A stretch of 64,000 bases of DNA from NCBI GenBank assembly GCA_004299305.1, contig SCPZ01000097.1:1-64000 (forward strand). The letters are read 5' to 3'. The position numbers were made by a program, and so were the translations under genes. A model generated the notes under the pieces. It made no database searches. It was not told where the DNA came from and was given only the letters and a program-made list of their open reading frames with translations. Origin of the DNA: Methylobacter sp. GTDB lineage: Bacteria > Pseudomonadota > Gammaproteobacteria > Methylococcales > Methylomonadaceae. How positions within the stretch are numbered: position 1 is the first letter of the stretch; the number at the start of each line of letters is the position of its first letter. Below are positions 6,186 to 9,895 of the stretch, one piece after another.

Positions 6186-6692
6186 TTATGTCGCCGCGTC
6201 AACGGTTTCCAGGTGGACAGCCAAGGGGTCAGGTCCGGTCAGTTTGATTCGTTGGCCTGCATTTAAGGTAATACAGGCGCCTGCGCAATCAGGTTTGAGC
6301 GGGATTTGCCTGCCGTCGCGTTCTATCAAAACAGCCAAAACGATCTGGTTTGGCCTGCCATAATCGAAAATCTCATTCATTGCAGCGCGTGTGGTTCTGC
6401 CGGTATAAAAAACATCATCGATCAAGATAATGTCGCGGCCTTCAATGTGGGGCGGCAACTGGCTGGGTTTTACATTGGGATTTACGCCGATTTGCGAAAA
6501 ATCGTCCCGGTAAAATGAAATATCCAGCAACCCTAAAGGTTCGCTGATATTCAAACGTTGATGCATTTGCTCGGCAATCCACACGCCGCCGCTATGAATG
6601 CCGATCATCAACGGATTAAGCAGCTTCCTTTCGTCGATAGTGTGTTTTAGTTCGGCTTCCAGGTTGTTTAATAATTCGGGGATTTTTAACAC
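6186..6692 (-). CDS. pyrR: PyrR-type uracil phosphoribosyltransferase / pyrimidine regulator
   Basis: 168 residues. The PRPP-binding motif IILIDDVFYTGRT lies at residues 88-100 in a type I phosphoribosyltransferase fold, with PyrR-like SFYRDD and NVKPSQLP segments. It converts uracil and PRPP to UMP, and in some bacteria it binds pyr mRNA. It abuts ruvX with no spacing. In Pseudomonas-type gene order pyrB and pyrC follow, but here the next gene is a convergent methyltransferase, so any regulatory target would be elsewhere. Confidence 0.9.
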   Translation of the reverse strand: MLKIPELLNNLEAELKHTIDERKLLNPLMIGIHSGGVWIAEQMHQRLNISEPLGLLDISFYRDDFSQIGVNPNVKPSQLPPHIEGRDIILIDDVFYTGRTTRAAMNEIFDYGRPNQIVLAVLIERDGRQIPLKPDCAGACITLNAGQRIKLTGPDPLAVHLETVDAAT

Positions 6693-7151
6693 TTAACAGT
6701 CCTTTTTGGTACGGTCATTTAGCCAGGTTTGCAAGATAAGCTGGGCGGCGAGTTGGTCTTGCACTTCCCATAGTTTGCTTGCACTAACGCTGACTTCATC
6801 AAATAACATTTGTTTGGCTTCAAATGTCGACAGGGTCTCGTCCTGTTGAAAAACGGGCAGTTGATAACGCCCTTCCAGCTGTCTGCAAAATTTTAACATA
6901 CGAGGTGTTACGGGGTTGTCCGAGCCGTCGGCCTGCTTTGATATGCCGACCACCAAACCGGCAGGACGCCATTCCTGTATCAGTTTGCCGATTATCTCCC
7001 AGTTGGGGTTTTGATTAATCGAGCGTATGGTTTGCAGCGGACTTGCGGTGGCGGTGAGTGTTTGGCCAACGGCAGAGCCTATTTTTTTAGTGCCAAAATC
7101 AAAGCCCAGGTAGGTATCGGTGTTGGTTCTTGCTAATAATGGGTCTTGCAT
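6693..7151 (-). CDS. ruvX: RuvX/YqgF RNase H-fold nuclease
   Basis: 152 residues. The N-terminal YLGFDFGTKKIG (catalytic D18) and the later VVGISKQADGS and QDETLST segments are those of the YqgF/RuvX family, linked to 16S rRNA 5'-end maturation and Holliday-junction resolution. It sits between yqgE and pyrR as in pseudomonads. A REP-like element ends about 10 bases upstream of its start codon, and no good ribosome binding site is visible there. Confidence 0.9.
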   Translation of the reverse strand: MQDPLLARTNTDTYLGFDFGTKKIGSAVGQTLTATASPLQTIRSINQNPNWEIIGKLIQEWRPAGLVVGISKQADGSDNPVTPRMLKFCRQLEGRYQLPVFQQDETLSTFEAKQMLFDEVSVSASKLWEVQDQLAAQLILQTWLNDRTKKDC

Positions 7152-7159
7152 AGTTTATA

Positions 7160-7208
7160 TCGCCAAGGATGGTGTGTATGCCGCAAACCTGCCGGGAGCA
7201 GGTGCGGC
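7160..7208 (-). repeat. REP-like palindromic element, copy A (intergenic)
   Basis: Lies between yqgE and ruvX. The right half folds as GCCGC-AA-ACCTGC, loop CGGGA, GCAGGT-GCGGC. It shares its whole length with copies at 8317-8355 and 8791-8842. Confidence 0.75.
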
Positions 7209-7262
7209 GTTTGGTTTGTTCTCATAAGAGGGTAGGGGGGCAAGAGGTTTATACAAGCCGAA

Positions 7263-7826
7263 TTAGCCATGCCCTGCCGGGGCGGTCAAGCGATTAATAT
7301 CAATGCCAATCAGTTCGGCGGCGGCTCGCCAGCGCAAGTTAACCGATGTATCGAACAAAACTTGTTTGCCGCAAGGTGTATTAAGCCAGGCATTATCCAT
7401 GATTTCTTTTTCCAATTGTCCAGCCCCCCAACCGGCGTAACCTAAAGCCACCAGATATTGTTCAGGGCCTTCGCCTGCTGCAATCGCTTCGAGCACGTCG
7501 CGTGAGGTGGTCAGTGAAATGGTCTCTGAAATAGGCATACTCGCATGCCAGTTTCCGCCTGAGGTATGCACCACAAAACCGCGTTCTTGTTGCACAGGGC
7601 CGCCTGCAAAAACAGGAGCTTCAGCTGCTGCGGGCGCGGCGACGATTATATCCATCTGTTTGAAAATTTCGCCAAGCTTCATGTCCGTCGATCTATTAAT
7701 GACGATGCCTAATGCACCGTCTTCATTGTGTTGACACAAATAGGCAACGGTATGAAAAAAATTGGGATCCGCCAGGGTGGGCATGGCGATAATAAACTGG
7801 TTCGTTAGGTAGGTAGCTTGGTTCAT
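7263..7826 (-). CDS. yqgE: YqgE/AlgH family protein (UPF0301)
   Basis: 187 residues from the ATG at 7826; a TTG five codons upstream is less likely, since the family starts with a short lead to FIIAMP. Family features are visible: NQFIIAMPTLADPNFFHTV, NEDGALGIVINR and GYAGWGAGQLEKE. AlgH/YqgE is a conserved small protein of unsettled function, tied in Pseudomonas to regulation. It is part of the gshB-tonB-yqgE-ruvX-pyrR run. Confidence 0.9.
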   Translation of the reverse strand: MNQATYLTNQFIIAMPTLADPNFFHTVAYLCQHNEDGALGIVINRSTDMKLGEIFKQMDIIVAAPAAAEAPVFAGGPVQQERGFVVHTSGGNWHASMPISETISLTTSRDVLEAIAAGEGPEQYLVALGYAGWGAGQLEKEIMDNAWLNTPCGKQVLFDTSVNLRWRAAAELIGIDINRLTAPAGHG

Positions 7827-7866
7827 GGGGCTTAGTATCAAAGTTTATAGTGACTTAAGCAACTGT

Positions 7867-8790
7867 TTATCGCGTGGTCATGCCTGATTCGTCAGAAAAT
7901 TTCCAAACTCGGGTAATCACCAGGACATCAAGTTCTTTCTGCAGGTCTGAGGGTAGTGGCGCAAAGGGCGCGCTCATGCGGACAATTCTTTTAGCGGCTT
8001 CATCCAATGCCGGATTTCCCGATGACTGGTTGATGCGTATGCTGTAAATGCTGCCGTCTGTTTTGATTCCGACATCCATGGTTAAGGTGCCGGAGAAATT
8101 TTTCTTGGCCGCCACTTCCGGGTAATTCAGGTTGCCGGTGCGCTCCACTTTATCTTCCCAATCCTTCATGTATTGGGCTGCGATGTATTTATGGGCGCTG
8201 ACCGATTCGACAAATTTTATCTTGGTTTGCTCGGCGCTTTGCTGGTTGAGCCTGATTTCGGTGCCCAATTGGGTGATTTGTTGTTGCAGCATCTCCGCCG
8301 ACAATTGCGGGTGTTTTATCGCCATGGACGGTGTGTATGCGGGAGCAGGTGCGGCGGCGTCAGTATGTTGCCCGGTATTCGGCTTGCTTGCGGTAAGGAT
8401 GCTTTTTTCTGCCTTTTTCTGGGTAAGCACTTTTTTCGCCGCTTTAGGCTCGCTTTGTTCGGGGATGCTCTTTTTTACCTGCTTGGCCTGGCTATTATTG
8501 CCGGGACTGGGCAGTTGTTGCGGCGGCGGTTCATGCTTTTTATTTTGTTCGCCGGTGCCCAGCTGATTTTCCTGGGCCAAGTTGTGCGCTTTTTCAGGCG
8601 CTTTTTGGGTCGGCATATTAACCAGGGTGATATCAATGGACCGGCTGACTTTCGCAGGTAAAGGTGTTGTGAAATTGATGCCTAATCCAATGATAATATG
8701 AACTATGGCCGCTAAAAATAAGGCAATCAATAATGAGTCGTTATTGGACAGCGGCGCAGGTGAATCAAATATTGCCTGATGTGTTCTCAT
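7867..8790 (-). CDS. TonB-family energy transducer
   Basis: 307 residues. An N-terminal membrane helix (about 21-40) is followed by a Pro/Lys/Gln-rich periplasmic spacer and a C-terminal TonB domain (about 230-300, with GTLTMDVGIKTDGSIYSIR and a closing RVWKF). Such proteins pass proton-motive force from ExbBD to outer-membrane receptors; no exbBD lies nearby, as expected for this locus. The spacer contains AAPAPAYTPSMAI, which is the translation of a REP-like element. Its start overlaps the 3' end of gshB by 26 bases. Confidence 0.85.
   Translation of the reverse strand: MRTHQAIFDSPAPLSNNDSLLIALFLAAIVHIIIGLGINFTTPLPAKVSRSIDITLVNMPTQKAPEKAHNLAQENQLGTGEQNKKHEPPPQQLPSPGNNSQAKQVKKSIPEQSEPKAAKKVLTQKKAEKSILTASKPNTGQHTDAAAPAPAYTPSMAIKHPQLSAEMLQQQITQLGTEIRLNQQSAEQTKIKFVESVSAHKYIAAQYMKDWEDKVERTGNLNYPEVAAKKNFSGTLTMDVGIKTDGSIYSIRINQSSGNPALDEAAKRIVRMSAPFAPLPSDLQKELDVLVITRVWKFSDESGMTTR
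8317..8355 (-). repeat. REP-like element, copy C (inside tonB, shortened)
   Basis: Same sequence as copies A and B but lacking about 12 internal bases, which removes the left arm of the hairpin. It is translated within the TonB spacer as AAPAPAYTPSMAI. Confidence 0.75.
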
Positions 8791-9784
8791 TTATCGCCAT
8801 GGCTGGTGTGTGTGCCGCAAACCTGTCGGGAGCTGGTGCGGCAAGGGTGGTTTCAATATGGTCCATTAGTTGACCGCAAATATTCAGTCCAAACTGGCGA
8901 TCCAATTCTTGAACGCAAGTGGGGCTTGTAACATTAATTTCGGTCAGCGTATCGCCAATCACATCTATTCCGACAAAAACCAGGCCTTTATCCCGCAATG
9001 TCGGTCCAACCTGCTCGGCAATCCAGCGATCCCGTTCGGTTAATGGCCGACCTTCGGCTCGTCCGCCCGCTGCCAAATTGCCGCGAGTTTCGCCAAGTGC
9101 GGGAATGCGCGCCAAAGCGTAAGGTATAACCTCGCCGTTAACCAATAATATACGTTTATCACCGTCTACAATTTGCGGCAGGTATTTTTGCGCCATTACA
9201 TAGCGACTGTTGTACTGGGTCATGGTTTCCAAAATCACGCTGAGATTGGGGTCGTCCTGGCGCAGATGGAAAATAGAGGTGCCGCCCATGCCGTCCAGCG
9301 GTTTTAAAATGATTTCGCCTTGTTCCAGTAAAAAATCCCTGATTCTGGTCGGTTCCCTTGCCACCAGGGTTTCTGCGCAGCACTGCGGAAACCATGCGGT
9401 AAAAAGCTTTTCATTGGCATCCCGCAACGACTGCGGTTTGTTGATTACATAAACACCCATACTTTCGGCACGTTCCAGTAAGTAGGTTGCGTAAATATAT
9501 TCCTGGTCGAAAGGCGGATCTTTACGCATCATAATCACATCCAGTTGATCCAATGGAATATCCTGCTCTGTGATAAACGCGTACCAATTTTTTTCATCAC
9601 GCTGAACCTTAATCGTCCGCGTTCTGGCATAAGCTCTGCCGTTTCGGAGGAACAAATCATTAAGTTCCATATAATGCAACTCCCAGCCTCTAGCCTGGGC
9701 TTCAAGTAACATCGCAAAACTGGTATCTTTTTTTATATTGATATGGTCGATGGAGTCCATGACCATGCCGAGCTTAATGGGCAT
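8765..9784 (-). CDS. gshB: Glutathione synthetase
   Basis: 339 residues from the ATG at 9784 (MPIKLGMVMD, the family start). It joins glycine to gamma-glutamylcysteine with ATP. The ATP-grasp core shows MRKDPPFDQEYIYATYLLE, LKPLDGMGGTSIF and NVTSPTCVQELDRQ. After HIETTL, where E. coli GshB nearly ends, come 25 extra residues (AAPAPDRFAAHTPAMAI and more), encoded by a REP-like element that also creates the overlap with tonB. No Shine-Dalgarno site is seen; a heptanucleotide array lies 10 bases upstream of the start. Confidence 0.95.
   Translation of the reverse strand: MPIKLGMVMDSIDHINIKKDTSFAMLLEAQARGWELHYMELNDLFLRNGRAYARTRTIKVQRDEKNWYAFITEQDIPLDQLDVIMMRKDPPFDQEYIYATYLLERAESMGVYVINKPQSLRDANEKLFTAWFPQCCAETLVAREPTRIRDFLLEQGEIILKPLDGMGGTSIFHLRQDDPNLSVILETMTQYNSRYVMAQKYLPQIVDGDKRILLVNGEVIPYALARIPALGETRGNLAAGGRAEGRPLTERDRWIAEQVGPTLRDKGLVFVGIDVIGDTLTEINVTSPTCVQELDRQFGLNICGQLMDHIETTLAAPAPDRFAAHTPAMAINENTSGNI
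8791..8842 (-). repeat. REP-like element, copy B (3' end of gshB)
   Basis: Full-length copy with an intact imperfect hairpin, starting from TTTATCGCCATGG on the plus strand. It is read in the same frame as copy C and gives AAPAPDRFAAHTPAMAI. Confidence 0.75.
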
Positions 9785-9793
9785 AATTATTTT

Positions 9794-9840
9794 AGGTTCA
9801 AGGTTCAAGGTTCAAGGTTCAAGGTTCAAGGTTCAAGGTT
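9794..9840. repeat. Heptanucleotide tandem array (AGGTTCA)n
   Basis: Six complete AGGTTCA units plus a partial one run without error, ending 10 bases from the gshB start codon. The inverted form ACCTTGAACCTTG follows at 9849-9862, so the array can fold back. Confidence 0.9.
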
Positions 9841-9895
9841 GTACCTTTTACCTTGAACCTTGCTCCTTTTATCTAAGTTATTTTATAGATTGTTG

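Follow-up and report, generated by a model that had tools for sequence, protein, structure and literature searches.

Comparative analysis of a glutathione synthase operon in Methylobacter sp. and of the repeats embedded in it revealed a 51-bp palindromic element, here termed E51, that appears to be mobile and to be carried as an in-frame protein insert in many genes, a reading supported by comparisons of DNA and predicted proteins across the genus. Taken as a whole, the family is best explained as REP/RPE-type mobile DNA, short and non-autonomous, with a probability of roughly 0.85. On this explanation, the top strand would fold as single-stranded DNA, and a trans-acting transposase, perhaps an HUH/Y1 enzyme, would move the element without avoidance of genes. 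Because the length of 51 bp is a multiple of three and no stop occurs in the consensus, genic insertion would usually leave the frame open and add 17 residues. Inserts encoding a neutral, cysteine-free peptide, or falling in loops, linkers or protein ends, would survive more often, others being purged.

The window, i.e. the whole stretch of 64,000 nucleotides that was analysed, harbors a minus-strand operon with the gene order gshB, tonB, yqgE, ruvX and pyrR, the gene names being backed by NCBIfam and Pfam. The genes and element copies under study are as follows:

6693–7151, minus strand: ruvX, neighbour of copy 1 (NCBIfam/Pfam)
7159–7209, plus strand: element copy 1, intergenic between ruvX and yqgE (R1 model match at 7158–7209 of 81.1 bits and repeat family)
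7263–7841, minus strand: yqgE (AlgH-like), neighbour of copy 1 (NCBIfam/Pfam)
7867–8790, minus strand: tonB-family gene, the insert preceding the C-terminal TonB domain at residues 220–285 (NCBIfam/Pfam)
8318–8356, plus strand: element copy 2, within tonB (repeat spanning 8317–8356, R1 match at 8317–8353 of 27.4 bits and repeat family)
8765–9784, minus strand: gshB, with a C-terminal tail encoded by the element (NCBIfam/Pfam)
8793–8843, plus strand: element copy 3, at the overlap of gshB stop and tonB start (R1 match at 8792–8843 of 69.6 bits)

Sequence matches confirmed the three copies that the original prediction had placed in this operon, and a model search of the 64-kb window at E values up to 0.01 returned no fourth. 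All three share one orientation, with the top strand antisense to the operon genes, and copy 1, a unit of 51 bp, is 90% identical to copy 3 across 51 nt. Copy 2 is shorter by 12 nt, lacking the 5′ arm of hairpin 2, and remains in frame. As had been proposed, the tonB and gshB copies are read in the same orientation and frame, minus-strand translation giving AAPAP-AYTPSMAI for copy 2 and AAPAPDRFAAHTPAMAI for copy 3. The predicted 25-residue GshB tail and 26-bp overlap with tonB were likewise recovered: the glutathione synthase model stops at residue 315 of 339, the tail comprises the 25 residues beyond IETTL, and the overlap spans positions 8765–8790. In a structure model of GshB (35 sequences, mean pLDDT 77.8), residues 323–339, which make up most of the tail, lie past the last helix with pLDDT values below 50. 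In this operon, the element would have lengthened GshB, created the 26-bp gshB/tonB overlap and given TonB an extra segment. The nearest gshB loci from named genomes belong to Methylobacter sp., M. tundripaludum and Candidatus M. oryzae, several of them with 94–96% protein identity. Immediately upstream of gshB (9794–9862), we observed a heptamer tandem of AGGTTCA with 6.7 perfect copies, followed by a short TTGTACC repeat.

Of 35 copies listed for the source genome, 31 were aligned and yielded the consensus TATCGCCAGGGATGGTGTGTATGCCGCAAGCCTGnCGGGAGCAGGCGCGGCG. The unit, running from ATCGCC to GCGGCG and equal to 17 codons, was set at 51 bases because tandem copies recur every 51 bases. A genome-wide copy count, set beforehand as a test of the prediction, revealed more than 30 additional copies in the source genome. 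Covariance-model search gave 33 matches at E<1e-8 plus a tail of degenerate matches, and the head pattern occurred 32 times versus 0 for the reversed pattern; this repetition places the element beyond chance. Across the genus, 22 of 23 genomes had matches at E≤1e-7, summing to 692, with five matches or fewer in three of the 22 carriers. Matches were usually few beyond the genus: 52 of 151 Methylomonadaceae genomes (source genome included) had them at E≤1e-4, and five of 274 gammaproteobacterial genomes (source included) at E≤1e-6 under stricter filters. Some weak matches are accounted for by a second subfamily of the same layout, with the unit GACTGCCATGG...TGCGACC in tandem at 51 bases.

Further observations concern the diversity and orientation of such repeats. 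The second, two-hairpin 51-bp subfamily, with the unit GACTGCCATGGATGG...TGCGACC and again in tandem, was seen at loci L228, L231, L233, L235 and L239 (about positions 1501–1552), and some second-subfamily copies lie in predicted coding frames, e.g. of TAMDGGSAATGREP-like peptides. One genome of the same family and another genus (G075, 2.1 Mb) contained 36 weak matches with a best E value of 8e-7, suggesting another abundant subfamily, and related elements (L372–L375) were found in two further gammaproteobacterial families. On contig 11 of genome G389, two successive matches are spaced by 53 rather than 51 bases. Around gshB (13 of 80 gshB loci, L090–L105 neighbourhoods), all 38 element matches run antisense to the gene, many of these being orthologous sites and hence few independent cases. 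Along the large contig of M. tundripaludum SV96, inspected with replication-strand bias in mind, element orientations are mixed.

For an account of gene context, 150 strong non-overlapping copies were placed, 30 from the source genome and 120 from relatives, the latter being the highest-scoring ones; the shortened tonB copy scores too low for this set. Orthologous sites were merged to 91 clusters, or to 79 upon strict merging (by either flank or tandem array), with gene calls based on codon usage and open frames, not annotation. The chi-square test of frames, the empty-site counts and the length counts rest on the 91-cluster set. Most strict clusters turned out to be gene-internal (56 of 79), the others lying at a 3′ end (5), on the 5′ side (6) or in intergenic or unclear positions (12). 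The corresponding numbers were 64, 7, 7 and 13 for the 91 clusters and 17, 4, 4 and 5 for the 30 copies of the source genome; in M. tundripaludum SV96, 14 of 21 copies were gene-internal. Twenty-seven internal clusters were common to at least two loci.

The predicted host proteins include DnaN, ValRS, LeuRS, UvrD, AroA, SufB, RNase R and RapA, as well as MinC, oligopeptidase A, GlnE, YhdP, a ComEC-type protein and a lytic transglycosylase. ValRS of the source genome has two predicted inserts (L009/L013). The RapA gene at locus L255 also contains two, at separate places and in opposite orientations. When aligned to solved homologues, the insert corresponds to an exact gap of 17 residues for AroA (5buf) and for oligopeptidase A (4ka8). 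DnaN also has 17 additional residues, which the aligner split, and for ValRS and UvrD the alignment was looser at the insert. All but one of 30 scanned host proteins match a Pfam family. The original suggestion that the palindrome spreads as a protein linker agrees with TonB, MinC and the GshB tail, but does not extend to the at least 15 of these 30 hosts in which, by our reading of the matches, the insert falls inside one continuous Pfam domain match.

Inspection of cluster boundaries shows an exact 51-bp insertion after the T of WT^NNNGH, with no duplication and in either orientation relative to genes. Among 77 array ends, with each strict cluster represented once, position –1 was T in all cases, –2 was A or T in 74, +4 was G in 64 and +5 was a base other than G in 74. 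The left end of the element, T^ATCGC, itself matches a WT^NNNGH-type target, which would explain the head-to-tail tandems.

Filled and empty versions of the same sites were found in relatives for both gshB and tonB, as the original prediction would have it. Among 28 GshB proteins (27 of the 80 loci plus the source), six have the AAPAP-frame tail, three (L099, L101 and L102) have the element read in a different frame, and 19 have neither tail, most of them ending in IExxLQ or nearly so; the usual C-terminus in relatives is IETTLQ. At the DNA level, the gshB site of M. tundripaludum SV96 reads CTGCAATGA, and the source genome has the element between both halves; further empty gshB sites are present in L095, L098 and L104. 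The tonB insert is present, in a single frame, in three of 43 informative sequences (the source, L099 and L102) and absent from 40; L129 tonB is truncated at the insert position. L099 and L102 contain a full-length copy there, the source copy being short by 12 bases. More distant gshB and tonB orthologues lack the peptides; with the further genome copies, neither of the two outcomes named beforehand as refuting the prediction was obtained. More generally, a search for empty homologues of the 91 clusters gave 17 ungapped results among the loci compared, and, after three tandem artefacts had been discarded (L010 and two L294 rows), a clean empty junction without target duplication for 14 site clusters (21 to 29 of 30 bases identical). 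A tree built from 24 gshB rows, with weak support at 10 of its 21 inner branches, requires the gshB copy to have been gained or lost four times, and at least two of these events are forced by well-supported branches; this implies that the site was either filled repeatedly or emptied exactly.

Genes with a Y1_Tnp domain are present in all 23 genus genomes searched, a point that, together with the hairpins and the copy number, speaks for E51 being a classic REP family, moved in trans by a RAYT and mostly extragenic, with coding copies as exceptions. We consider this doubtful. The RAYT/TnpA-REP partner that had been envisaged did not turn up: the flanks of 78 Y1_Tnp loci (10 from the source genome, 28 from the genus search and 40 others, together a part of the genus's Y1 genes), scanned over about 1–1.5 kb or less at contig ends, contained no strong copy and three weak matches of 23–26 bits. 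The majority of E51 copies are intragenic, and the consensus, starting with ATCGCC and ending with GCGGCG, has no GTAG tag. A survey of REPs (PMC3733652) describes them as mostly intergenic, with a subset of GTAG/CGTC REPs lying inside genes of several species, UvrD/REP helicase and tRNA synthetase genes among them, and reports that most genomes show head-to-tail tandems of GTAG REPs less often than expected or not at all. E51 resembles the GTAG/CGTC REPs so described in being a short repeat with an imperfect stem-loop, some copies of which lie in UvrD and tRNA synthetase genes, but differs in lacking both terminal tags, in its mostly intragenic location, in its head-to-tail tandems at 51-bp spacing and in having a target motif of its own. 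The CGTC REPs of the same description have a CGTC tag, a stem of 8–9 bp and a loop of 4–5 nt (PMC3733652), from which the E51 consensus and its two-helix structure depart.

A parallel for the coding copies is offered by the RPEs, described in two reports as palindromic repeats of about 105–150 bp lying in frame within conserved protein genes of Rickettsia (PMC2229807, PMC10969869). Like these, E51 is palindromic, repeated and predicted to be inserted in frame in conserved protein genes that tolerate it; unlike the RPEs as published, it measures 51 bp, has two hairpins and a target motif, and resides in a free-living gammaproteobacterium. Judged on these descriptions, it looks like a family separate from the RPEs. 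Enterobacterial RU-1/2/3 intragenic repeats, as outlined in PMC2229807, span 103–168 bp and contribute open frames fused to host genes; E51 shares the fused open frames, but is shorter than the repeats in that outline and has neither terminal inverted repeats nor target duplication. A search of an open-access library for methanotroph palindromes and for the peptides yielded no description of E51.

Classical MITE traits were not apparent either, as the ends of the E51 consensus are not inverted repeats and the 14 empty-site clusters are free of target duplication. Miniature elements of the IS200/IS605 type have one-strand hairpins, a T-rich left target and no target duplication, their defining feature being insertion after a fixed left target without such duplication. 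E51 likewise inserts after a fixed left target without duplication, but its target is also constrained at the +4 base on the right, and none of the 78 Y1_Tnp loci scanned has a strong copy beside its transposase gene. The absence of duplication, the T-rich left target, the one-strand hairpins and the tandems are compatible with a single-strand HUH/Y1 route, from which the right-hand target G is not readily derived.

As for the fold, the palindrome of about 50 bp originally described held in size (51 bp) but not as a single simple palindrome, two hairpins being found instead. Support was obtained for two helices, CGCCA/TGGTG and GCCGC-AA-GCCTG/CAGGC-GCGGC, the latter with a two-base bulge. In an alignment from relatives (124 rows, 86 distinct) that had been fitted to the structure beforehand, 98.1% of cells were paired, both-side changes occurred in 8 of 15 pairs, and 89 cells were changed on both sides versus a shuffled mean of 23.0; the signal was lost when partners were slid out of register. 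The unfitted 31-row alignment exceeded all shuffles in three of five structure measures, namely pairing (94.2%), both-side changed cells (29 vs. 8.1) and the covariation score, and did not do so for the number of both-side-changed pairs or for further pair types. G-U cells outnumber A-C mismatches on the consensus strand as written, which makes this (top) strand the likelier folder. Covariation in the hairpins and G-U wobble on one strand, together with the operon location, would also be expected of a structured RNA or regulatory element (an attenuator or a processing site, for instance) merely located in transcripts. This interpretation is improbable given that copies face either way with respect to the gene and also lie within conserved domains, and that a search of window positions 6500–9500 against Rfam produced no match at E values up to 1.

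Reading-frame usage was tabulated for the 56 internal strict clusters. The commonest frame reads the top strand as IARDGVYAASLSGAGAA (36 clusters); the bottom-strand frame AAPAPDRLAAYTPSLAI, i.e. the AAPAP frame of tonB and gshB, accounts for seven, and other frames for eight, three and two, with the YRQGWCVCRKPVGSRRG frame missing from all 56. The Pro/Ala frame highlighted by the original prediction is used by both neighbouring genes, but is a minority choice among these clusters. Expected shares were derived by counting the target motif over six phases in the 45 genes of the 64-kb window only; relative to these, the main frame was overrepresented (36/56 vs. 30.5%, P=2e-7), as were the two mild frames IARDGVYAASLSGAGAA and AAPAPDRLAAYTPSLAI combined (43/56 vs. 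41.6%, P=9e-8), and the whole distribution deviated in the 91-cluster set (chi-square P=4e-8). In the whole genomes of the source and SV96, whose copies were not selected by score and have some sites in common, the bias was weaker, with the main frame at 15/31 (P=0.028; SV96 alone, 4/14) and the two mild frames at 22/31 (P=0.0009). The frame bias is real and its size uncertain; the relatives' cluster set, drawn from top-scoring copies, may overstate it, and target phase accounts for part of it.

The IARDGVYAASLSGAGAA and AAPAPDRLAAYTPSLAI peptides are neutral and free of cysteine, and the other four are cationic, three of them with cysteine. In all three cases of the bottom-strand off-1 frame, the second base before the unit is A, where a T would make a stop. 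Depletion of cysteine-bearing, cationic or stop-making frames suggests selection. The main frame was used in 22 of 37 unshared and 19 of 27 shared clusters (91-cluster set), with no clear difference and, consequently, no direct sign of selection over time. One might suppose that selection acts on the peptide itself, which would have spread as a functional tag or linker because of its role in proteins; the predominance of the two mild frames and the sharing of internal clusters among loci would allow this. That E51 inserts are read in five frames across both strands as unrelated peptides, that the element at the gshB site is read in two frames among relatives, that the scanned hosts have no obvious common pathway and that copies of the same length also lie between genes makes this very improbable. 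Recombination or gene conversion among existing copies, without transposition, could produce tandems at 51-bp spacing, but is hardly credible in light of clean insertions in unrelated genes at a common target motif with no duplicated flank.

Returning to E51 as mobile DNA, its fit to coding sequence deserves comment. A length of 51 bp was found for 63 of 64 internal and for 12 of 13 intergenic or unclear representatives of the 91 clusters; because the latter are also 51 bases long, genes alone do not set this length, which is intrinsic to the element and, by chance or by evolution, suits coding sequence. The consensus contains no stop in any of the six frames, a property shared by 9.6% of shuffled sequences of the same composition and by 0.5% of random sequences drawn at genome composition, so that openness beyond composition is suggestive, not conclusive. 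The intrinsic length, retained even between genes, gives ground for the tentative idea that E51 is adapted to intragenic life, combining whole-codon length, six open frames and a WT^NNNGH target that prefers the phase NWT-NNN-GHN, the sense insert thereby tending towards one of the mildest of the six peptides. We regard such adaptation as possible, though less than even.

Foreign peptides in essential enzymes are usually assumed to be harmful. Here, a 17-residue peptide is predicted in a sliding clamp, in a tRNA synthetase (twice), in EPSP synthase, in a helicase and in many other proteins. The hosts span a free-living genus with cultured members, and their filled and empty orthologues constitute natural experiments on loop tolerance. 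E51 would show how a mobile element can become compatible with coding sequence, and it would widen a phenomenon best known from Rickettsia to a free-living methane-eating bacterium.
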